Assembly (NCBI GenBank): GCA_017410375.1
Contig: JAFQQW010000050.1
Coordinates: forward strand, 1 to 64,000
Reading direction: 5' to 3'
Origin: Clostridia bacterium
GTDB taxonomy: Bacteria; Bacillota; Clostridia; RGIG6154
DNA: 64,000 nucleotides
The notes under the pieces: model-generated
The model's input: the letters and a program-made list of their open reading frames with translations, nothing else
Databases searched by the model: none
What the model was told of the DNA's origin: nothing
Part shown: one piece after another, positions 38,656-60,486 of the stretch
Numbering within the stretch: the first letter of the stretch is position 1
Layout of the letters: every line of letters begins with the position of its first letter
Position numbers and translations under genes: made by a program

Positions 38656-38732
38656 GCACTCGTAGCCCAGCTGGATAGAGCGTCAGACTCCGACTCTGAA
38701 GGCCGCAGGTTCGAATCCTGTCGAGTGCGCCA
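38656..38732 (+). tRNA. tRNA-Arg (anticodon CCG)
   Basis: This 77-base cloverleaf has acceptor stem GCACTCG/CGAGTGC with discriminator G and encoded CCA. The D-arm GCCCAGCTGGATAGAGC has one C-A mismatch. The anticodon arm TCAGA-CTCCGAC-TCTGA gives anticodon CCG, and the T-arm is GCAGG-TTCGAAT-CCTGT. It reads CGG codons. The last 18 bases are repeated at 48052-48069, which marks this gene as a likely past integration site. Confidence 0.97.
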
Positions 38733-38735
38733 CAT

Positions 38736-38775
38736 AAGGACAACAACTTTGATAGAATTGTTGTCCTTTTATTTT
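38736..38775 (+). terminator. Terminator after tRNA-Arg
   Basis: AAGGACAACAA pairs with TTGTTGTCCTT around CTTTGATAGAA, followed by TTATTTTT. Confidence 0.8.
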
Positions 38776-38880
38776 TGCCTTTATTTAAGCCTTTTTCGGG
38801 CTTCCCATTATAATTTCACATACAAAAATACCGCTATCCGAGCGTAAAATTCCGGGTAGCGGTTATTTTTTTATATTCAA
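38759..38880. repeat. Intergenic repeat with hairpin, copy 1 (of 56130-56252)
   Basis: Most of this stretch recurs at 56130-56252: TTGCCTTTATTTAAGCCTTT, then CATATACAAAAA-like sequence, then an ACCGCTATCCG...CGGGTAGCGGT hairpin (about 38830-38863) with T-rich tail. Both copies run straight into ATCGT-type repeat units: five units here, but a single shortened one in the other copy. It may be the end of a mobile element. Confidence 0.65.
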
Positions 38881-38982
38881 ATCGTGAAATTTATAGGGTA
38901 ATCGTCAAACTTATGGGGTAATCGTGAAATTTATATGGTAATCGTTAAATTTATGGTGGTATTCGTGAAATTTTTGAGTAAT
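38881..38982 (+). repeat. Direct-repeat array A, 20-bp period, five units
   Basis: Units of the type ATCGTGAAATTTATAGGGTA begin at 38881, 38901, 38921, 38941 and about 38962, so they have a strict 20-21 bp period with variation inside each unit. There are no spacers, which excludes a CRISPR array. Two degenerate units in the same orientation recur at about 39397-39430. The two-helical-turn spacing fits cooperative protein binding, such as a transposase or repressor at an element end. Confidence 0.75.
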
Positions 38983-39004
38983 AGTGATAAAATGTACCCT
39001 ATAA

Positions 39005-39122
39005 AATGGACACTTTAAAAGTGTGAATCCATAATAATGGACATGTTAAAAGTGTGAATCCCAATCTATGGACATACTGAAAGTTTGAATCCTGGGTTAT
39101 GGACATAATAAAGATTGTAAAT
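39005..39122 (+). repeat. Direct-repeat array B, 31-bp period, four units
   Basis: Units with the core ATGGACA, then TTAAAAGTGTGAATCC, start near 39006, 39037, 39068 and 39099. The period of 31-32 bp is three helical turns, and the last unit is degraded. One more unit lies at 39435-39460. The array directly precedes a small ORF with strong ribosome binding site (39166), as an operator or transposon end would. Confidence 0.75.
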
Positions 39123-39165
39123 GAAAAAAACGATGATATAATTGATTAAAAGGAGGAATTTAAAA

Positions 39166-39291
39166 ATGGCTTTGAATTATTTTACTCAGGATGAAGTGCA
39201 TGAACTTTTGATGAATCCATATACACGATGGAATACTCACTTTGATAGAAAGTGGGTATTCTGTTTTTTTGCTCAAAATCCCTTTTTTTAA
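39166..39291 (+). pseudogene. Truncated IS-type ORF (possible IS3 OrfA-like N-terminus)
   Basis: ATG at 39166 follows AAAGGAGG and codes for 41 residues. The first 20, MALNYFTQDEVHELLMNPYT, resemble the start of clostridial IS3-family OrfA proteins (YFT-x-x-E-V-x-x-L-x-x-NPY). After that the frame runs into the hairpin repeat at 39231 and stops. It is most simply the stump of a transposase gene whose body was lost by deletion. The family match is from memory of the pattern and is not a search result. Confidence 0.45.
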
Positions 39292-39412
39292 GGGTTTTAC
39301 GGCACTTCCAACGATTTTGAAGCACTGCAACTCGAACTGAATTTGGTGTTTTTTCCATTTCATTTTGCAAAAATAAACACACGCTCTTCAGCACCCGTCA
39401 AATTTATGGTGT
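39231..39412. repeat. Hairpin repeat plus flank, copy 1 (of 48075-48256)
   Basis: A terminator-like hairpin, GAATACTCACTTT-GATAG-AAAGTGGGTATTC (39231-39261) with T run and GCTCAAAAT, is followed by about 130 bases that recur with many substitutions at 48106-48256. These include the ends CTCTTCAGCACCCGTCAAAT here and CTCTTCAGCACACTTCAAAT there. A third copy of the hairpin only is at 60439-60486. Confidence 0.7.
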
Positions 39413-39460
39413 ATTTGTGAAATTTTTTCAGTGTAATGGATACCTTTAAAGTGTGAATTC

Positions 39461-40171
39461 TTATAAATTGTTTTTCCGGTATTTCGACGGAGAAATATGA
39501 TAATGTTTTTTAAAACAGTTGCTGAAATAGTAAAGATTTTCAAATCCGCATTTTTCAGCAATTTCGCTGATGGATAATGTGGTGTTGAAAAGCAAATCAG
39601 TTGCAAGATTTAAGCGGTATGTACAGATGTATTCTGTGGGCGTTTTTCCTGTCTCTTTTTTAAATTTCAGTAAAAAACCGGTGTGCGTCATGTGAACATG
39701 GTCAGCAAACTGCTTTATTGAGATGGATTCTTTATAATTTTCAGAGACAAAATCATAAAAAGCAATCGTTTCATTTGAAACGGAGTTATAGTGTTGCTGT
39801 ATCTCGGAAAAAGATTGTGCCGCCAAATCTATTGCAAAATGTTCACATAAATCGTTTTGGTTATTTTTTACGGCATCATATAAAAGTGAAATGGTACTGT
39901 TTTTTCTGAAAACATCTTTGTAAGATAAAACACCGCTTGTGAAAGGAAGTGTGTTTACATATTGTACATAAATTATTTTCAATGGTTGTAAGATATGACG
40001 CTTGAAAGAAACACCTTTTTCAAAAAATAAAACTGATTTTTCGTGCACAATCGTTTTCTTTTGATTTATTGTAAGTTCAAAGCTTCCTTCCAACACAATT
40101 ATTAAAACATTTTCAGCGTGCGAGCCTTCTTCTATCACAAATTTGTTTCTTTTTATGATACCAAACAGCAT
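39461..40171 (-). CDS. AraC family transcriptional regulator
   Basis: This is a 236-residue regulator on the minus strand. It has an N-terminal cupin-like sensing domain (about 1-110) and a C-terminal double HTH (about 135-236: ISIKQFADHVHMTHTGFLLK and LSISEIAEKCGFENLYYFSN, then FKKHYHISPSKYR). The start at 40171 is preferred over an upstream in-frame ATG because AGAGG lies just ahead of it and the extra leader is hydrophobic and A/T driven. It is divergent from the FAD oxidoreductase gene and shares the 117-base AT-rich gap with it, so it probably controls the 40289-47319 genes. Its 3' end abuts a repeat unit. Confidence 0.88.
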   Translation of the reverse strand: MLFGIIKRNKFVIEEGSHAENVLIIVLEGSFELTINQKKTIVHEKSVLFFEKGVSFKRHILQPLKIIYVQYVNTLPFTSGVLSYKDVFRKNSTISLLYDAVKNNQNDLCEHFAIDLAAQSFSEIQQHYNSVSNETIAFYDFVSENYKESISIKQFADHVHMTHTGFLLKFKKETGKTPTEYICTYRLNLATDLLFNTTLSISEIAEKCGFENLYYFSNCFKKHYHISPSKYRKNNL

Positions 40172-40288
40172 AACGAACCTCTTTTTTAGAATTATTATAA
40201 AAATATTATAAAACAATGTATTTAATTTGTCAATTATAGAATGTATAATTATGGTAGGATGTTAAAATTTTTATAAAAGGGTGATATT

Positions 40289-41566
40289 ATGTTGTATACA
40301 AATGAGTTGGAAACTATATTTTTTGCGGATGTTGTAGTTGCAGGCGGCGGACCTTCCGGTATTGCGGCTGCAATTTCAGCGGCAGAAATGGGAAAAAAGG
40401 TTTTGGTGCTTGAACGGGCAGGTGTTGTGGGCGGATGCTTAACTATAGGACATGTTTCACCAATTTCGGGTGGTCACGGTGAAAATACCATGGCGAACCG
40501 CATCAACACATATCTCGCTGATACAACTAAGTATGGCGTAAACAATTTTGAAAACACAAAAATCAAGCTTACAGACCTATTGGACAAAAAAGGAGTAGAC
40601 GTATTTTTAAACACTTCTGTGTGCGATGTTATCCGTGAGAATGGCGAAATCAAGGCGGTTGTTATTTCTACACAAAGCGGCTTAAAAGCGGTAGAAGGGA
40701 AAATGTTTATTGATGCAACAGGTGATGGCGTGCTTTCTTATCTTGCTGAAGAAAACGTTGAATACGGCAGAGACGACGGTTTGGTACAGCCTACATCTGT
40801 AATGTTTACGATAACTGGTGTAGATGAAAATCAGCCTTTGCTTTGTCACCATGAGGCAATGGATACTGTGCTTAAAAAAGGCAATTACTTGCAGATGTGT
40901 AAGGATGCTTGCAAAAACGGTGTTTTGCCTCCTGAAATTGATATTGTGCGACTTTATGCCGGAACGAATAAAGGAGACAGAGTTGTAAATGCAACCCAGG
41001 CTAACGGCTTCAACCCACTTGAACCTGCTGATTATACCAAAGCGCAGATTAAATTAAGAAAACAAATTGCGATTGTTGTAAAGTTTCTCAAAGAAAATGT
41101 TGAGGGCTTTGAAAATATCAGCGTAAAGGACAGTTCGGAGGGGATTGGTGTCAGAGAATCAAGAAGAATCAAAGGCATGTATACAATTTGTGCACAGGAT
41201 TTGATTGACGGGAAGCGTTTTGAAGATGTAATTGTTCATAACGCGAATTTTCCGATTGACATTCATAATCCGAACGGTGCAGGGCAGGCAGAAAGCGAAA
41301 CATTACCGGTGAAAGCAAAGCCATATGATGTTCCGTTTCGGGCGATTGTTCCGCTAATCAATAATAATCTGTTTACAGCAGGCAGATGCATAAGCGGTTC
41401 GCACAGAGCACACGCATCCTACCGAGTTATGAATATCGCTATGAACATCGGTGAAGCGGCAGGGGTTGCGGCATCGCTTTGTCTGGATTGTAATATGACA
41501 AACAAAGAACTTGACTATAAAAAAGTGCAGGAAGTACTGACAGGAAGAGGAATTGAATTATTTTAA
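40289..41566 (+). CDS. FAD-dependent oxidoreductase (FAD_oxidored family)
   Basis: This 425-residue flavoprotein has the FAD-binding motif VVVAGGGPSGIAAAISAAEM (15-34) and LVLERAGVVGGCLT. A C-terminal FAD-contact segment reads FTAGRCISGSHRAHASYRVM. Members of this family are often encoded beside glycoside hydrolases and may oxidise sugars or carry out redox steps in deglycosylation, but the substrate is unknown. There is no signal peptide. AAAAGGGTGAT precedes the ATG. It is the first gene of an apparent operon with the large secreted protein and the GH27 gene. Confidence 0.85.
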   Translation: MLYTNELETIFFADVVVAGGGPSGIAAAISAAEMGKKVLVLERAGVVGGCLTIGHVSPISGGHGENTMANRINTYLADTTKYGVNNFENTKIKLTDLLDKKGVDVFLNTSVCDVIRENGEIKAVVISTQSGLKAVEGKMFIDATGDGVLSYLAEENVEYGRDDGLVQPTSVMFTITGVDENQPLLCHHEAMDTVLKKGNYLQMCKDACKNGVLPPEIDIVRLYAGTNKGDRVVNATQANGFNPLEPADYTKAQIKLRKQIAIVVKFLKENVEGFENISVKDSSEGIGVRESRRIKGMYTICAQDLIDGKRFEDVIVHNANFPIDIHNPNGAGQAESETLPVKAKPYDVPFRAIVPLINNNLFTAGRCISGSHRAHASYRVMNIAMNIGEAAGVAASLCLDCNMTNKELDYKKVQEVLTGRGIELF

Positions 41567-41582
41567 AGAGGTGAATTGATAA

Positions 41583-44500
41583 ATGAAAAAATTACTTTCA
41601 CTTGTTCTTGCTATAGCTTATTTGTTCAGTGTTATTGCTCCGATGAGTGTTGCAGCGGAACAAAAACTGTTTACTGATTTTGAAGCATTTGATCTGGTAG
41701 TTGGCAGGCAAGGCGGACAAGGCGAAACGCTTCGTTTCGTGGTTCGCAAAGAAAATATTCCTTTTGACGCCGCGGATAAAAATTTATTGGGACTTAAAGT
41801 GGCGGGTAGTGTGAAAATTGACGGAAAAGATGTTGCATTCAACAGTAAAATTACGGCAGTTGAAATTGCAGACTCTACCGTAACTTTTTCTGTTGCACAA
41901 ACCAATGAAGTGCCGCGTGCTGCATATGATAAAACGGCATTCAGTCTTAAAGTTTATCCGGAATTGTATATAGAAGAAGCTGTTAACGATGAACCAATAG
42001 CACAAGAAATGTCTCGTCCTGCAGCTGCACGTCCTGAAACTGAAATTGCAGTTTCTTTTAATGGTGAATGGATGCAGTTTGATGTAAATCCTGTTATTAT
42101 AAATGGCAGAACTATGGTGCCTATGCGTGCAATCTTTGAGGCGCTTGGGTGCACAGTACACTGGATGGATGAAGCACAGACAGCGGTAGGTATACGAAAC
42201 GGTAAAACTGTATTTTGCACCATAAACAGTATGGATGCTATGGTAGACGGTGTGGCAACTGTTATTGACCAACCGGCAGTTCTTTTAAACAATCGTACTA
42301 TGGTGCCGTTACGATTTGTTTCCGAAGCGTTTGGCTGTACTGTGGAATGGGAAGAAAGTACACAGTCTGTGTACATTCAGTCTGAACAGGTGCCTGCAAT
42401 TTACTATGTTGTACATGATGATTTTGAAACGCTCGGTACGTGGACAATCAAAACGGACGATAAATATTTGCAGGGGATTTCAGTAGCGGAGAACGAAGGC
42501 AAAGAATTTAAAGATTACAAACCTGCGATTGCAAAAATCCGCGTGCAGAAAAGCGGTAAATATAAACTTTGGGTTCATGCGAGAGATTACGCAAAATCGA
42601 AACCCGGTACTCGTTTCTTTAATGTTGCGATTGACGGCGAAGTGGCAAAATCTACCTTTGGTAAACACGGCACGGAAGGCTTTGCGTGGGAAGACGGAGG
42701 TGTGGTTGAACTCTCTGAAGGTGTGCACACCATATCTTTGCTTGATACATCCGGGTTTTATGCCCGTTGCAAAGGTATTCTTTTGACAGATGATTTGTCT
42801 TTTGTTGTACCCGGCGAGGAAGAACTTGAAAAAACAGTAAAACCGTTCAGTGTCGCTGATGAGAAATCGTGGACGTTTTATCCGCAGTACACAAAAGAAA
42901 TTTTTGAAGCACACAAAACAGTATCTATTGAAAACAACAACAATAAAGTTGTTTTTTATCAGGGAAATTCATCAAAGGGTGCTTTGGTGCAGTATGAAAT
43001 TTTTACTAAAAATCCGAGCACGGGTGAATGGATTTATACCAGAAAACGTAACGAGGAATCGGGTGTGTTGTTAAAATATGCAGATACTGCCTCGTTCATT
43101 TCAGGAAAAGAAGGCGGTGTTGCTGTTTCTGCAACCGTGAATGCAGACGGTGTTGACATTTCTAATAACACAACCAATTTTTATGAATGGGGACAGTCTG
43201 AATGGTTTTTCCCGTATGATTTCGAGGTTGTAACTGAAAATAAGATTAAACTGTTTTATGCTGACGGTAACCGCGCAACATTGACACAAACTTTTGAATT
43301 TGACGGACTTACCGATGATTTGAAAGTAACATCTGATGCAATATTTAAAACAGATGGTGCCTATTCCTTTGCTTTTTATGCAAATGATGGTGTAACCAAG
43401 AGCCAATATGATACAGTTACAGCACCTATTCTGTATAACAAGCACGCTGTGCCCGACAGTCCCGTTGTTTTACCCGAAGCATATATGTATACACCTATGA
43501 ACACATTGTACTTTACAGCAGATAACAATGTAAAAACACCGGGTATTGCATTGACGCAAGGTCTTGCGGTTGACCCGGAAAGTACAGTTCAGGATTTTAA
43601 TCACCCCGACAGTGCACTGTACGGCACTACATTTTATGCGCCCAATAATAAAGTTCGACCGCAACTTGTTGCACCTGTAATGGGTACTGAAAACGCGAAT
43701 TTTAAAGCAGGAGAGTGCTATACATTCTCTTACAGAGTGCTCAACCGCTTTGAATACTGGTATGATACTTTAAAGCATGTTGCTGTTGATATGTATAACT
43801 GCAATGATATCAGAACCAATTACTATGGTTCCGTAAATAATCTGATTTACAATACAACCGACTTAATGATGGATGATGCATATGGCGGTTGGGATAAAGA
43901 GTTCATGGGACATTACAATATGGAAGGGCAGAACTTTGTTTCTCATGCAAACATAATGAGTGCATATCAGAGATATTTGATGACAGAAGACGAAGAGCTT
44001 TTGGAAGCACGCGTTGTTCCTACCATTGCGTATGCACTTTCAAGAGACACTGTGCATTATGCACCTACGAACGAAAATGACGGACTTACTTTAAATTATG
44101 CAAAAAATGCACCAACACCGCTTACAAATGAGACTATTGCGGCTTACGGCGCATCTGTGTTCGGTGGTCTATATGAAATGAGCCAAGGAAGAATGCCGTA
44201 TCTGTTGGATTTTGCTTTAAACCGAAAGAAACCCAATTCGGTGTTCGATGCAGGCGCTTTTTATAAGTATACAGGAGATGAAGCGTACAAGCAGGAAATC
44301 ATAAAACAGGCAGATAACTTTATTGCAAGCTATCCCAATGCGCCTGAAAACAGGGATACCTATATGCTGAGTACATTTGTATACGGTGACTACCTAAAAA
44401 TGGTTTCTGTTACACTTGCGGCATATGAATTAACGGGTGAACAAAAATATCTTGACATTGCAGAAGAAGCGGGTAGACTTTTGATGTGCGTTGTGTGGAC

Positions 44501-46172
44501 AACCGGTTATCAGAATGATTTTGCACAAAACACATATCGTGTTGAACAGTCGAAGGTAGCAGAGCGTCCGCTTAATGTTGATGTAACCGGGCATTCGTTT
44601 TTCTGGCATGGTAAACATAAATGGCGTCTCGGCAATGTGGATGGTGAAGCAAAACCGGCACAACAGCTTATTGCAGAAGGGAAAAAATCCATCCCTTCGG
44701 AAACGGTTCCGGGGTGGTTGCCGGCTGTTACCGGTATGGGAGCTGAGCATCCTTCAACACCGGGCAACGGAGTTGCAATCACAATGAATAACTGGTTGGG
44801 GGCTATGGTTCGTCTTTCTGAATACACCGGCGATCGTTTCTTTGAAACACAAGCCAGAAATGCGATTATAGGCAGATATCAAAATTATCCAGGTTACTAT
44901 GTGAGCCGTTATATGACGCATCACATGCATGAGAATTATCCGTATGAAGGTCCGGATTTTACATCAGTTTACTGGCATCACATTCCTGTGTATTTGTCTA
45001 TGGTTGAGGATTTCTTAATCAACGAAGCGTGGGCAAAATCAAACAGAAATATTGATTTTCCCGCGCTCTATCAGAAAGGATACGCATACTTTTATTCCTA
45101 TCAATTCGGTCAGGCGCCCGGTAAATTCTATACAGAGGATGATGTATGGCTTTGGCTGAAAGAAGGTGTGGTTGAACCTGATAATATCAATATTGATTAT
45201 ATTACTGCAAGAAAAGATGGCGTGCTTTGCATTGCGCTTATGAACGAAGATAATGCCGAAGTTAGCACTACTGTTAAATTGGGTAAAGAAGTTGGTGAAA
45301 ATATCAACACAACGGCAGTTCTTTTGGATGCAGACGGAAATGCATCTGAAATTTCTGTTGTAAACAGTCAGTTTACTGTAAATGTTCCGTCTAAAGGTAT
45401 TAAGAGTGTAATCATCAAAGGGGTAGATTCTGTTAAAAAACCGGCTTTTGCGAAAGAGTATGTTTACTCTACACAGATAGGACAAACAGTGTCTGCACAT
45501 ACCAATGGTTATGGATATGTAATCCAACCTACTGCGGATAAATACTGGGCATACATATATATTACCGATATGCATGAAGCGGATGCTGTTGCAACGCTTA
45601 CCTATACAGTTGACGGCAAAACCCAAACGCTTACCGATACAACACAAGGCTATGAATGGCTTGTAAAAGTTGAAAATCCTGATAGCGAATTTACATATAC
45701 TGTAGATGTAATAAAGGGCGATGGTACAAAAGTAAGCTACGGTGGCGGCACACTTAAGGCTTTGGAAAGTACGGATGTCGAGGAGAAAGTAACGGTTGGG
45801 AAATCTTCTGTTCCTGTAGCAGGCACAACAGGTACTACAGCTGCGATAAATAAGCTTGTTTTCAAACCATTTGATTTTAAATATTCTACACAAGGCTCAA
45901 GCGGGACAAAGTTCCGATTCGTTTGCAGATTGGATAGTTTTCCGTTTGAAGTGACCGAAAACAGCTTAACAGGACTAAAACTTTCGGGTACATTCATTGA
46001 CGGAGATAAAAAAATTCCTTTTGAAGGATATGTTCTCGGCAATGAAATGAGAAACAACAATGCAACTGTTGTGATTATATCTGAAACAGCTGATGTTAAG
46101 GCATCCGATTACAAGACAGGTACCGACAGGAATCATGTGTTTGATTTGCAGATGCTTCCACAGCAACAATAA
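41583..46172 (+). CDS. Large secreted multidomain protein with stalk, carbohydrate-binding-like and alpha-toroid regions
   Basis: This is a 1529-residue exported protein with signal peptide MKKLLSLVLAIAYLFSVIAP (cleavage near 25). In order it has: domain X (about 28-130, FRFVxR...IPFD...LxGLKxxG pattern), a two-unit copper-amine-oxidase-like stalk (about 165-275, NGRTMVPMRAIFEALGCTV and NNRTMVPLRFVSEAFGCTV), and a beta-sandwich resembling a carbohydrate-binding module (about 280-405). Then come a long unassigned beta-rich part, a helical region about 770-1200 that looks like an alpha/alpha toroid of glycosidases or lyases (GASVFGGLYEMSQGRMPYL, HHMHENYPYEG), and a second copy of domain X at the C-terminus (about 1430-1525). 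No enzyme family is assigned. It lies between the FAD oxidoreductase and GH27 genes, 13 bases before the latter. Confidence 0.75.
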   Translation: MKKLLSLVLAIAYLFSVIAPMSVAAEQKLFTDFEAFDLVVGRQGGQGETLRFVVRKENIPFDAADKNLLGLKVAGSVKIDGKDVAFNSKITAVEIADSTVTFSVAQTNEVPRAAYDKTAFSLKVYPELYIEEAVNDEPIAQEMSRPAAARPETEIAVSFNGEWMQFDVNPVIINGRTMVPMRAIFEALGCTVHWMDEAQTAVGIRNGKTVFCTINSMDAMVDGVATVIDQPAVLLNNRTMVPLRFVSEAFGCTVEWEESTQSVYIQSEQVPAIYYVVHDDFETLGTWTIKTDDKYLQGISVAENEGKEFKDYKPAIAKIRVQKSGKYKLWVHARDYAKSKPGTRFFNVAIDGEVAKSTFGKHGTEGFAWEDGGVVELSEGVHTISLLDTSGFYARCKGILLTDDLSFVVPGEEELEKTVKPFSVADEKSWTFYPQYTKEIFEAHKTVSIENNNNKVVFYQGNSSKGALVQYEIFTKNPSTGEWIYTRKRNEESGVLLKYADTASFISGKEGGVAVSATVNADGVDISNNTTNFYEWGQSEWFFPYDFEVVTENKIKLFYADGNRATLTQTFEFDGLTDDLKVTSDAIFKTDGAYSFAFYANDGVTKSQYDTVTAPILYNKHAVPDSPVVLPEAYMYTPMNTLYFTADNNVKTPGIALTQGLAVDPESTVQDFNHPDSALYGTTFYAPNNKVRPQLVAPVMGTENANFKAGECYTFSYRVLNRFEYWYDTLKHVAVDMYNCNDIRTNYYGSVNNLIYNTTDLMMDDAYGGWDKEFMGHYNMEGQNFVSHANIMSAYQRYLMTEDEELLEARVVPTIAYALSRDTVHYAPTNENDGLTLNYAKNAPTPLTNETIAAYGASVFGGLYEMSQGRMPYLLDFALNRKKPNSVFDAGAFYKYTGDEAYKQEIIKQADNFIASYPNAPENRDTYMLSTFVYGDYLKMVSVTLAAYELTGEQKYLDIAEEAGRLLMCVVWTTGYQNDFAQNTYRVEQSKVAERPLNVDVTGHSFFWHGKHKWRLGNVDGEAKPAQQLIAEGKKSIPSETVPGWLPAVTGMGAEHPSTPGNGVAITMNNWLGAMVRLSEYTGDRFFETQARNAIIGRYQNYPGYYVSRYMTHHMHENYPYEGPDFTSVYWHHIPVYLSMVEDFLINEAWAKSNRNIDFPALYQKGYAYFYSYQFGQAPGKFYTEDDVWLWLKEGVVEPDNINIDYITARKDGVLCIALMNEDNAEVSTTVKLGKEVGENINTTAVLLDADGNASEISVVNSQFTVNVPSKGIKSVIIKGVDSVKKPAFAKEYVYSTQIGQTVSAHTNGYGYVIQPTADKYWAYIYITDMHEADAVATLTYTVDGKTQTLTDTTQGYEWLVKVENPDSEFTYTVDVIKGDGTKVSYGGGTLKALESTDVEEKVTVGKSSVPVAGTTGTTAAINKLVFKPFDFKYSTQGSSGTKFRFVCRLDSFPFEVTENSLTGLKLSGTFIDGDKKIPFEGYVLGNEMRNNNATVVIISETADVKASDYKTGTDRNHVFDLQMLPQQQ

Positions 46173-46185
46173 AGGAGAATAAGAA

Positions 46186-47319
46186 ATGTTAGCGAAAACA
46201 CCACCTATGGGTTGGAACACATGGAATACTTTTGCAAATAATATAAACGAGCAGTTGATTAGAGAAACGGCAGACCTTTTTGTTGAGTTTGGATATAAGG
46301 ATTGCGGTTATGAGTATATCGTTATTGATGACTGCTGGGCTGAAAAACAGCGTGACGAAAACGGGCTTTTGGTTCCTGATAAAGAGAAATTCCCAAACGG
46401 CATCAAAGCTGTATGTGATTATGTACACAGCAAGGGTTTGAAGTTTGGTATCTATTCTTGTGCAGGTATTCGTACCTGTGCAGATTATCCGGGAAGTTTC
46501 GGACATGAATTTTCAGATGCAAAACAGTTTGCTGAATGGGAAGTTGATTTTCTGAAATATGATTATTGCAATGTTCCGGGATATATTAATGCCGAAATTG
46601 CTTATGCAACTATGAGCATGGCTCTTAAAGCTTCAGGAAGAGAAATTCTTTTTTCTGCCTGTAATCATGGCAAAGAAAATCCTTGGAACTGGATGCGTTC
46701 GATAGGTGCACACATGTACCGTTCAACACGGGATATTTTGGACAATTTTGTTTCGTATCATGATATTGCTGAAAGTCAGATTGATAAGCTTTCCATGTCC
46801 TCAACAGGTTGCTGGAATGATTTGGATATGCTGATTGTTGGTATGCATGGCAAAGGGCATGTTGGTATTGAAGATGGGTGTACTGAGGAGGAATATAAAA
46901 CACATTTTGCTCTATGGTGCCTGTTTAATACGCCTTTAATGATTGGCGGAGATATTCGTGCATTAAGTGAAAATTATAAGAAGCTCCTGCAAAACAAACA
47001 TCTTATTGCCATCAATCAAGATAAAGAGGGAAGACCGCCTTTTGATATTAACAACTCTTATTTTAATACATACGACACCAAAATTTTCTTTAAACATCTT
47101 TCGAATAATGAATTTGCAATAGGCATGTTTAATTTTTCAGAGCATGATAAAGAACTGACGGCAACATTCCATAGTGCCGGTTTGCCTTATTACACAAACA
47201 TAGGTTTTGAATTGATTGATGTTTTTTCAGGTGAAAACTTAGGTGTATATAAGGATAGTTACACCAGATATATTCCGTCTCACGGCTGTGCAGTGCTTAG
47301 GTGTAAATTTGCTGAATAA
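46186..47319 (+). CDS. Alpha-galactosidase, glycoside hydrolase family 27
   Basis: This 377-residue intracellular enzyme starts with the family's hallmark TPPMGWNTWNTFANNI and IVIDDCWAE. The nucleophile is D126 in FLKYDYCN, and the acid/base is the second Asp of WNDLDML (about D214). The C-terminal beta domain is short (about 290-377). It removes terminal alpha-1,6-galactose (or a related sugar such as arabinopyranose) from oligosaccharides. AAAGGAG precedes the ATG. It is last in the operon that starts at 40289. Confidence 0.93.
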   Translation: MLAKTPPMGWNTWNTFANNINEQLIRETADLFVEFGYKDCGYEYIVIDDCWAEKQRDENGLLVPDKEKFPNGIKAVCDYVHSKGLKFGIYSCAGIRTCADYPGSFGHEFSDAKQFAEWEVDFLKYDYCNVPGYINAEIAYATMSMALKASGREILFSACNHGKENPWNWMRSIGAHMYRSTRDILDNFVSYHDIAESQIDKLSMSSTGCWNDLDMLIVGMHGKGHVGIEDGCTEEEYKTHFALWCLFNTPLMIGGDIRALSENYKKLLQNKHLIAINQDKEGRPPFDINNSYFNTYDTKIFFKHLSNNEFAIGMFNFSEHDKELTATFHSAGLPYYTNIGFELIDVFSGENLGVYKDSYTRYIPSHGCAVLRCKFAE

Positions 47320-47730
47320 TCAACTTGAAACCATAGACATTCAAAGTTTCCGTGTAACGCGGACAGATATGTTAAACAAATTTTTAAAGTATAGAGGCGT
47401 AAAAAAGAGTGGTGCACCCCCTTTTTGATTTGCACCCTCCGGGTGAAACGATTCTTTGAATTGAACTAAATATGTTAATTCTGCATCGTTTCTTCTTTAT
47501 TTAAAGGCGTTGCCGAATCGTACAATAAAATGAATTTGTACTGAAAATGAGTATAGTTTGAATAAAAAAACAATCGAACCGGATGTGTTCGATTGTTTTT
47601 TATATTATTGGCTTTGTTTAGCGAAAAACATGCTTTATGCTTTGTTGGGTGTACGATTATTTGCGTAAGAGTGGGGGTGGACATTGTTATGTCTCACGGA
47701 ATCAAGACTTTTCTGACAATAATGATATTT
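47320..47730. other. Intergenic region without gene; terminator and C-rich units
   Basis: No coding region is supported here. Two units of a C-rich repeat (TGCACCCCC and TGCACCCTCCGGGTG, at about 47411 and 47429) match the family of the array at 55787-55857. A bidirectional terminator lies at 47564-47603. The rest is unremarkable AT-rich DNA. Confidence 0.6.
47564..47603. terminator. Bidirectional terminator
   Basis: AAAACAATCGAAC-CGGATGT-GTTCGATTGTTTT has A and T runs on its two flanks. Confidence 0.75.
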
Positions 47731-47850
47731 GAAACCGCACCTTTTAAAATGAAACCATAATTACTTAAATGAAACCGCACCTTTAAAAATGAAACCGTAT
47801 TTTTGAATTTGAAACCATACGGGTTAAAGATGAAACTTTCTATTAAAGTT
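47731..47850 (+). repeat. Direct-repeat array C, 20-bp period, six units
   Basis: Units of the type GAAACCGCACCTTTTAAAAT start at 47731, 47751, 47771, 47791, 47811 and about 47832. The first six bases, GAAACC, are kept in the first five units, and the rest of each unit varies. There are no spacers and no associated cas genes. The period equals two DNA turns, as in array A, although the sequence is unrelated. The array ends near a GC-rich hairpin (CCCCACC-ATAT-CGGTGGGG, about 47873-47892). Confidence 0.75.
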
Positions 47851-47907
47851 GTGGTCTTTACCCAAACGAAAAGCCCCACCATATCGGTGGGGTTGTTCGT
47901 TTGTTAA

Positions 47908-48045
47908 GAAAAGAAGGATTCGAACCTTGAGAAGGCACGAGGCGAGAAACAAAACAGTCCAGTGGACTGTTTTGGCGACGAGTGTTGCGCAGACGGGTAC
48001 TGCGAGCAAAGCGGAGCGGTCGTCAAGCAGAGCAGATGCGAAGCA
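47908..48045. repeat. 138-bp perfect repeat, copy 1 (of 55888-56025)
   Basis: All 138 bases are identical to 55888-56025. The repeat is GC-richer than its surroundings. It opens with GGATTCGAACC, the reverse complement of a tRNA T-arm, holds the near-perfect palindrome AAAACAGTCC-AG-TGGACTGTTTT, and then a run of AGC-rich sequence. Both strands are open in some frames, but no start or ribosome binding site supports a gene. Such identity in non-coding DNA means recent copying. Confidence 0.9.
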
Positions 48046-48051
48046 TATGCC

Positions 48052-48069
48052 ATCCTGTCGAGTGCGCCA
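48052..48069 (+). repeat. Duplicated 3' end of tRNA-Arg (att-like)
   Basis: ATCCTGTCGAGTGCGCCA is an exact 18-base copy of the end of the tRNA-Arg gene (38715-38732), in the same orientation and 9.3 kb away. Duplicated tRNA 3' ends are typical of attL/attR pairs made by tyrosine recombinases. No integrase gene lies between the copies, so if this is an island the integrase has been lost. Confidence 0.7.
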
Positions 48070-48074
48070 TAACG

Positions 48075-55786: not shown

Positions 55787-55857
55787 TTGCACCCATTTGC
55801 ACCCCCTATAGGTGATTTACACCCCCCTAGGTGCGTTTTGCACCCCCCTGGGGGAAA
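55787..55857 (+). repeat. C-rich direct-repeat array D
   Basis: Units of TTGCACCCCCCTAGGTG type start near 55787, 55797, 55816 and 55837, the later ones about 20 bp apart. The GGTG or GGGGG at the end of a unit can pair with the CACC or CCCCC at its head, so each unit is a small palindrome. Two related units lie at 47411-47440. The 739-base gap 55548-56286 holds no gene; it contains this array, the 138-bp repeat and the 56130 repeat. Confidence 0.65.
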
Positions 55858-55887
55858 TTCTATTAAACTCATACATACAACACAAAC
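55850..55887 (+). repeat. Short repeat, copy 1 (of 60400-60436)
   Basis: GGGGGAAATTCTATTAAACT and the following CATACATACAACACAAACG recur, with a few changes, at 60400-60436. Here the segment links array D to the 138-bp repeat. At 60.4 kb it links to the hairpin repeat. Confidence 0.6.
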
Positions 55888-56025
55888 GAAAAGAAGGATT
55901 CGAACCTTGAGAAGGCACGAGGCGAGAAACAAAACAGTCCAGTGGACTGTTTTGGCGACGAGTGTTGCGCAGACGGGTACTGCGAGCAAAGCGGAGCGGT
56001 CGTCAAGCAGAGCAGATGCGAAGCA
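55888..56025. repeat. 138-bp perfect repeat, copy 2 (of 47908-48045)
   Basis: Identical over 138 bases to copy 1, in the same orientation and 8 kb away. The flanks differ: copy 1 is followed by the tRNA-Arg 3' end, copy 2 by GACTGTCGAGTCTCGAATGAG-like sequence that shares only CTGTCGAGT with it. Confidence 0.9.
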
Positions 56026-56129
56026 GATTGGACTGTCGAGTCTCGAATGAGTGATTTTTCGGGTATTGCCAAGGGCAGTCCGAAAAATATGAAATGCAGA
56101 GCCTCCCTACCCTCAAAAATCAAAGGTGG

Positions 56130-60399: not shown

Positions 60400-60486
60400 G
60401 AGGAAATTCTATTAAACGCATACATTCAACACACGATGGAATACGCACTTTGATAGAAAGTGGGTATTCTGTTTTTTGCTCAAAAT
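60400..60486 (+). repeat. Composite repeat: linker plus third hairpin copy
   Basis: The 60343-60636 gap holds no gene. GGAAATTCTATTAAACGCAT (from 60402) and its continuation match 55850-55887. Directly after, at 60439-60469, is the hairpin GAATACGCACTTT-GATAG-AAAGTGGGTATTC with T run and GCTCAAAAT, the third copy of that at 39231 and 48075. A lone CACCCGGGGG unit at about 60354 recalls array D. Confidence 0.65.

Follow-up and report, generated by a model that had tools for sequence, protein, structure and literature searches.

CIMEs keep their att sites, have lost their recombination genes and are found in tandem at the 3' ends of genes (PMC7563491). In the tyrosine-integrase attP of ICEMlSymR7A, five arm-type sites are all required for efficient integration (PMC11963761). 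Features comparable to both are found in the DNA of a Clostridia bacterium (lineage RGIG6154; GenBank assembly GCA_017410375.1), of which we analysed a window of 64,000 nucleotides (contig JAFQQW010000050.1, positions 1 to 64,000).

The locus resembles the CIMEs and microCIMEs of Streptococcus salivarius (PMC7563491), since sites of the end or att type are kept at both sides (L1, R3 and YCCA at three tRNA loci), recombinase and transfer genes are lacking among the proteins scanned, accretion is in tandem at gene 3' ends and carbohydrate-metabolism cargo is common. Moreover, the gene-free units of 130-220 bp described there resemble a unit of ~190 bp behind a tRNA-Arg gene of a congener (G002). 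It differs from CIMEs in its CCA-only core, its inverted 24 bp termini, its subterminal 20 bp arrays and the terminators within its end, as well as in its longer module chains, for which no parent ICE or IME is known. Like tRNA islands (Islander, PMC4383910) and tycheposons (as described in PMC10872708), the modules are anchored at a tRNA gene, leave the target whole and carry a large metabolic cargo; unlike in these, no integrase was found among the ORFs scanned, and long tRNA-fragment repeats occur at some borders only. Several repeated sites away from the crossover are shared with the attP of ICEMlSymR7A (PMC11963761), whereas the units described here are 20 bp long, tandem and variable in number. 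Multiple direct repeats near inverted termini also recall the ends of IS21 and Tn7-like elements (PMC10122671), but a transposase, TG..CA termini and a consistent 5 bp duplication are missing here and the site behind the tRNA is fixed. The locus is probably best explained by decayed integrative modules without a recombinase that accreted in a CIME-like manner at tRNA 3' ends, with two repeat arrays, A and B, situated in the left end.

The left end L1 and the arrays A and B

The left part of the locus contains the following features, all on the forward strand.

38656-38732, +: tRNA-Arg(CCG), found by ARAGORN and Rfam; predicted integration target whose 3' CCA is the left border
38733-38881, +: L1 leader, beginning with CATAAGGACAACAAC; sharp left border at CATAAGG in 14 genomic copies
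38880-38982, +: array A, five units of 20-21 bp, AATCGTGAAATTTATGGGGT
38983-39004, +: spacer between A and B (ending in GTGATAAAATGTACCCTATAA), also at C51:64539 and partly at C51:132090
39005-39124, +: array B, units of 31 bp, AATGGACANNNTNAAAGTNTGAATC, three good and one degenerate
39115-39142, +: promoter-like TTGTAA-N16-TATAAT with TG before the -10 box, adjoining the last B unit
39166-39228, +: truncated ORF start, MALNYFTQDEVHELLMNPYTR, with first codons common to the C51 copy and then broken
39228-39460, +: second left end L2, with terminator hairpin GGAATACTCACTTTGATAGAAAGTGGGTATTC (z -8.0) and A-like and B-like units

A DNA search revealed 14 copies of L1 in the genome of this bacterium, distributed over the contigs C50, C51, C16 and C21. 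When aligned, they have a common border between CA and CATAAGG, to the left of which the sequences are unrelated; one copy lacks the first bases of the end. To the right of the border the copies have in common a terminator-type hairpin, a spacer and a second hairpin. L1 measures about 150 bp, with array A following the second hairpin, and folding placed the two hairpins of the window at 38736-38768 (z -4.8) and ~38830-38862 (z -4.3). The homology ends at varying points, mostly in or just past array A, where the cargo starts. All 14 copies have the same orientation, and L1 and L2 ends are without exception directed away from the tRNA of their contig. Three of the copies stand directly behind tRNA genes, most others between modules consisting of an AraC regulator and a glycoside hydrolase operon.

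The presence of two adjacent arrays had been claimed in the original prediction and is borne out by their spacing and frequency. The units of array A start at 38882, 38902, 38922, 38942 and 38963 (spacings of 20, 20, 20 and 21 bp), and their pattern has five sites in the window, with 0.69 expected and three as the largest count in shuffled sequence. In array B, TGGACA recurs at 39007, 39038 and 39069 with a degenerate fourth unit at 39100, corresponding to a period of 31, and the pattern has four matches in the window (three in the array and one on the far side of the truncated ORF) against 0.01 expected. The array periods are near whole helical turns, as had been pointed out before.

Array A, of which nine of the 14 L1 ends have some 2-7 clear units, lies mostly ~149 bp from the recombination border, and its unit types are shuffled between copies; since five ends do without it, it seems dispensable for the keeping of the end. 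The variable number of units, their shuffling and the ends without an array would suit a mere minisatellite beside the double terminator, driven by slippage and having no protein partner. We regard this as improbable, since the right ends have their own 20-21 bp arrays of other sequence (array C, and GCACCCCCC at 55795) and slippage alone gives no explanation for periods that all lie near whole helical turns.

Array B behaves differently from array A, which is a part of L1. Elsewhere in the genome there is one copy of array B, at C51:64539, bringing the total to two, and both copies come with a promoter and a gene start, never alone. Since the combination of array B with the start ATG GCT TTG AAT is found beyond the window only at C51:64539, array B seems to travel with the gene start. 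In ~85,000 species genomes, the two-unit pattern of array B gave one chance match, in coding sequence of an alphaproteobacterium, and among 390 relatives of the class a pattern of this type was found only in the genome itself, apart from one chance match with three mismatches. The promoter-like sequence is weak evidence, as the region holds five such matches with 3.6 expected and they are hardly rarer in shuffles.

Right ends and borders at tRNA genes

The cargo and the right part of the locus are composed as follows.

39461-47319, both strands: cargo, with an AraC regulator (-) and FAD oxidoreductase, 1529-aa protein and alpha-galactosidase (+)
47727-47850, +: array C, units of ~20 bp, TGAAACC-N13, inside the right end
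47834-47864, +: right end R3, AACTTTCTATTAAAGTTGTGGTCTTTACCCA, related in inverted form to the initial 24 bp of L1
47865-48051, +: displaced tRNA-downstream sequence, with a terminator-type hairpin and then tRNA-derived inverted sequence
48052-48069, +: exact 18 bp repeat of the tRNA-Arg 3' end (ATCCTGTCGAGTGCGCCA), with another L2 end behind it

Array C, which differs from array A in sequence, leads into AACTTTCTATTAAAGTTGTGGTCTTTA (47727-47864). When the reverse complement of the R3 terminus is compared with the first 24 bp of L1, 20 of 24 positions agree, which was reached in 0 of 100,000 shuffles. Five R3 ends are known, each with YCCA directly after it. R3 is joined straight to L1 (R3-YCCA-CATAAGG) in two places, and this is also the junction that would be expected for a circle. 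Five right ends of a second type, R-D (AAATTCTATTAAACGCATACATTCAA followed by CACA), lie on C50 and C51, and the sequences behind them differ. The R-D end at 55795 is preceded by the ~21 bp GCACCCCCC array; at 55795-55884 lies a third terminal array, with units of ~21 bp, GCACCCCCCTAGGTG, ending in AAATTCTATTAAACTCATACATACAACACA.

L1 adjoins, without a gap, the CCA of three tRNAs: tRNA-Arg(CCG) in the window, tRNA-His on C51 and tRNA-Arg(CCT) on C16. At all three loci the tRNA is left intact and the border lies exactly at its 3' end (CCA, then CATAAGG). The sequence after R3 in the window, CCCAAACGAAAAGCCCC with the hairpin and the inverted sequence, stands in the congener G002 immediately behind the CCA of tRNA-Arg; the junction reads CCAAACAAAAC in G002 and CCCAAACGAAAAG at R3 of the window. 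CCACAAATAAAAAGGATACC is what comes after R3 on C51. In the same genome, a fragment on C21 has 25 nt from the 3' end of tRNA-His and then AATAAAAAGGATACC, which is the sequence behind R3 on C51, and in the family member G005 the tRNA-His junction is CCACAAATAA, the tRNA being followed by CCACAAATAAGAACGC. Since R3 thus abuts the normal tRNA-downstream sequence of empty sites, the stretch from L1 to R3 represents an insertion between the tRNA and its terminator, and the inserted L1 end would, judged by its predicted hairpin, provide a new terminator for the tRNA.

The comparison of the borders left only CCA in common, as the left border reads CCACA everywhere and the right one CCACA, CCAAA or CCAAG. 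As for a target duplication, which the original prediction had named as support, five identical base pairs (CCACA) stand on both sides of the tRNA-His island, whereas the sequences differ at two of the three loci, the tRNA-Arg islands (CCACA/CCAAA and CCACA/CCAAG). Conservative recombination fits a CCA-only border better than a 5 bp target duplication does; CCA itself may be a 3 bp target duplication. The same short border counts against our preferred explanation, because it is short for a tyrosine integrase that targets tRNA genes. Arm-type sites are usually shorter and few, so that the varying number of array A units (~2-7) and the five L1 ends without an array count against it as well, as does the failure to find a recombinase that uses these ends.

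These borders also bear on whether the ends belong to a DDE transposon of the IS21, Tn7 or IS3 kind, the arrays being transposase sites and the cargo modules non-autonomous copies with a short CCA duplication. Inverted 24 bp termini with subterminal direct repeats at both ends are in line with this, as is the CCACA on both flanks of the tRNA-His island, and IS21 and Tn7 ends do have several direct repeats bound by transposase (PMC10122671). We consider it unlikely nevertheless, since the right borders of the two tRNA-Arg islands argue against a 5 bp duplication, the termini are not TG..CA, the assembly is devoid of an rve-type transposase and the collections searched gave no intact element.

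Displaced tRNA fragments are of different lengths. At R3 there is CCA alone, and the repeats of 18 bp (48052) and 25 bp (C21) mark other borders. The 18 bp direct repeat (38715-38732 and 48052-48069) marks a separate tRNA-type border beside R3. A sequence of 156 bp at 47908-48063, in which a tRNA T-arm stands inverted (AAGGATTCGAACCTTGAGAAGGCACGAGGC), recurs at 55888-56041 with 96% identity, and relatives of it lie at the ends of contigs C31 and C45 and, in G002, immediately after tRNA-Arg. The G002 version is a unit of ~190 bp between repeats of the tRNA 3' end, which is microCIME-like.

The ORF stump between two left ends

The ORF behind array B starts with an ATG at 39166 that is preceded by an AGGAGG box, continues for 21 codons in its own frame and then enters the terminator hairpin of L2. 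It had been described as an IS-type ORF, and it may resemble an OrfA of the IS3 type or excisionases. The stump does not bear out the IS label: it had no match in Pfam and NCBIfam, tblastn against plasmids and phages gave no match, and no credible match was obtained in 98 relatives. Weak matches of the stump peptide, which lay in or beside unrelated genes (one of them resembling ornithine carbamoyltransferase), were rejected. None of the nine array-A copies has an intact ORF and two of the nine have a trace of its start.

Degenerate units of both types beyond the stump, in the orientation of arrays A and B, had been predicted and were indeed found at 39395-39459: two A-like units (39395-39432) and one B-like unit (39435-39459). 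They had been taken, together with the arrays, for the two ends of one element around the stump, a reading that does not hold. L2 is homologous at 39228-39421 to the L2 ends at 48074 and 88943, with the hairpin only at 60438, and the A-like unit at 39395 falls within this homology block. By this homology, the stump lies between two tandem left ends, L1 (38733) and L2 (39228), and the far-side units share the orientation of the arrays because they belong to the second of these ends. The outer element has its true right end 9 kb away, in R3 at ~47864.

Search for a recombinase and accretion of cargo modules

Pfam scans of the cargo proteins revealed no recombinase in the C16 element or in the window modules, and recombination and conjugation genes were absent from both among the proteins scanned. 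Pfam scans of part of the ORFs, combined with tblastn, gave no integrase gene in the islands; the tblastn searches, with two serine recombinases and one tyrosine recombinase as queries, had no match there. The assembly had no match for a DDE/rve transposase (PF00665). The original prediction of a full element with the arrays flanking a transposase found no support, as the genome search yielded no intact copy; moreover, arrays found mainly without the ORF had been named beforehand as speaking against a simple transposon, and this is the case in the nine copies. The search for an intact copy was equally negative in 40-60 relatives, IMG/VR, phages and plasmids, and a parent ICE or IME was not found in relatives, IMG/VR, phages and plasmids. 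The assembly is a fragmented draft of 69 contigs from which an intact copy may be missing.

In IMG/VR, the L1, R-D and array-A motifs had no match, spaced TCGTGAAA arrays occurred in two contigs and TGAAACC arrays in 32; many of these arrays were discarded because they are coding repeats or, probably, iterons. Two prophage-type contigs (L200:5200-5300 and L215:140-220) have terminal TGAAACC arrays that look like array C; near the one of L200 lie two large serine recombinases and a gene with a NADAR domain, which is a lead only. Arrays of TACCATGAAACCAGCAACA with a period of ~20 bp in L195, L214, L216, L217 and L224 are probably iterons, and several such viral-contig arrays adjoin a 293-aa gene resembling plasmid repA.

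It could be argued that arrays A, B and C are themselves iterons or partition sites of a plasmid-like element with a rep gene after B, integration being secondary. Arrays of the array-C type (TGAAACC, ~20 bp) do stand beside a repA-like gene in L195, L216, L217 and L224, and array B adjoins the promoter region of a first gene, as iterons or operators of rep genes can. Such an origin is nonetheless highly improbable, given that array A occurs at nine ends without a rep gene and mostly at the fixed distance of ~149 bp from the border, that the stump has no replication-protein match in Pfam and NCBIfam and that A and C differ in sequence.

In the modules behind the tRNAs, an AraC gene is often turned towards the end, with an operon diverging from it. 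The scanned cargo comprises alpha-galactosidases, GH2, GH95, an FAD oxidoreductase and large proteins with a copper amine oxidase N-terminal domain, among them the 1529-aa protein of the window. A complete single element from L1 to R3, 18.5 kb in length with AraC, GH2, GH36 and GH95 cargo, is present on C16. Very large proteins (~1500-2200 aa) with signal-like starts recur in many modules of C16, C50 and C51 (in the window at 41583-46172), at least one of them with a copper amine oxidase N-terminal domain.

According to the CIME-like explanation, site-specific recombination would have placed the element behind the 3' CCA of tRNA-Arg and ahead of the terminator that belongs to this tRNA. The element would have brought a new terminator in L1, the old one being displaced ~9 kb downstream, behind R3. 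Modules of this kind, which lack a recombinase of their own where examined, could then have been inserted time and again, so that chains of sugar-catabolic cassettes grew in one direction behind at least three tRNAs. Because integrase arm sites typically form a series of repeats at some distance from the crossover, array A at the left end and array C at the right end are probably arm-type or directionality-factor sites of a lost recombinase, and array B probably served the first gene of the element as operator or promoter region. We were able to show the borders, copies, orientation and empty sites in the assembled DNA, and the lack of a recombinase among the scanned proteins; mobilisation in trans, the recombinase itself and the binding roles of the arrays are what we infer. 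Of the idea that the arrays are protein-binding sites at the end of an element, the mobile-type end has been confirmed and accessory sites are the best guess for array A, but the transposase as their partner is not supported. A bolder possibility, to which we give limited credence, is a cassette system unlike integrons, in which chains of regulator and operon would grow one way behind tRNAs with L1/L2 and right ends, one recombinase would act in trans at the CCA border and the variable arrays would be its docking sites.

Little is known of how uncultured Clostridia-type bacteria acquire and shuffle glycan-use operons. In the single genome studied here, module borders at 14 places can be told by a short and recognisable end, from which the site and direction of cargo addition can be read, and the locus would be a case in which tRNA termination is kept by a terminator within a mobile end. 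The L1 end is a concrete signature by which cassette chains and their recombinase may be found.
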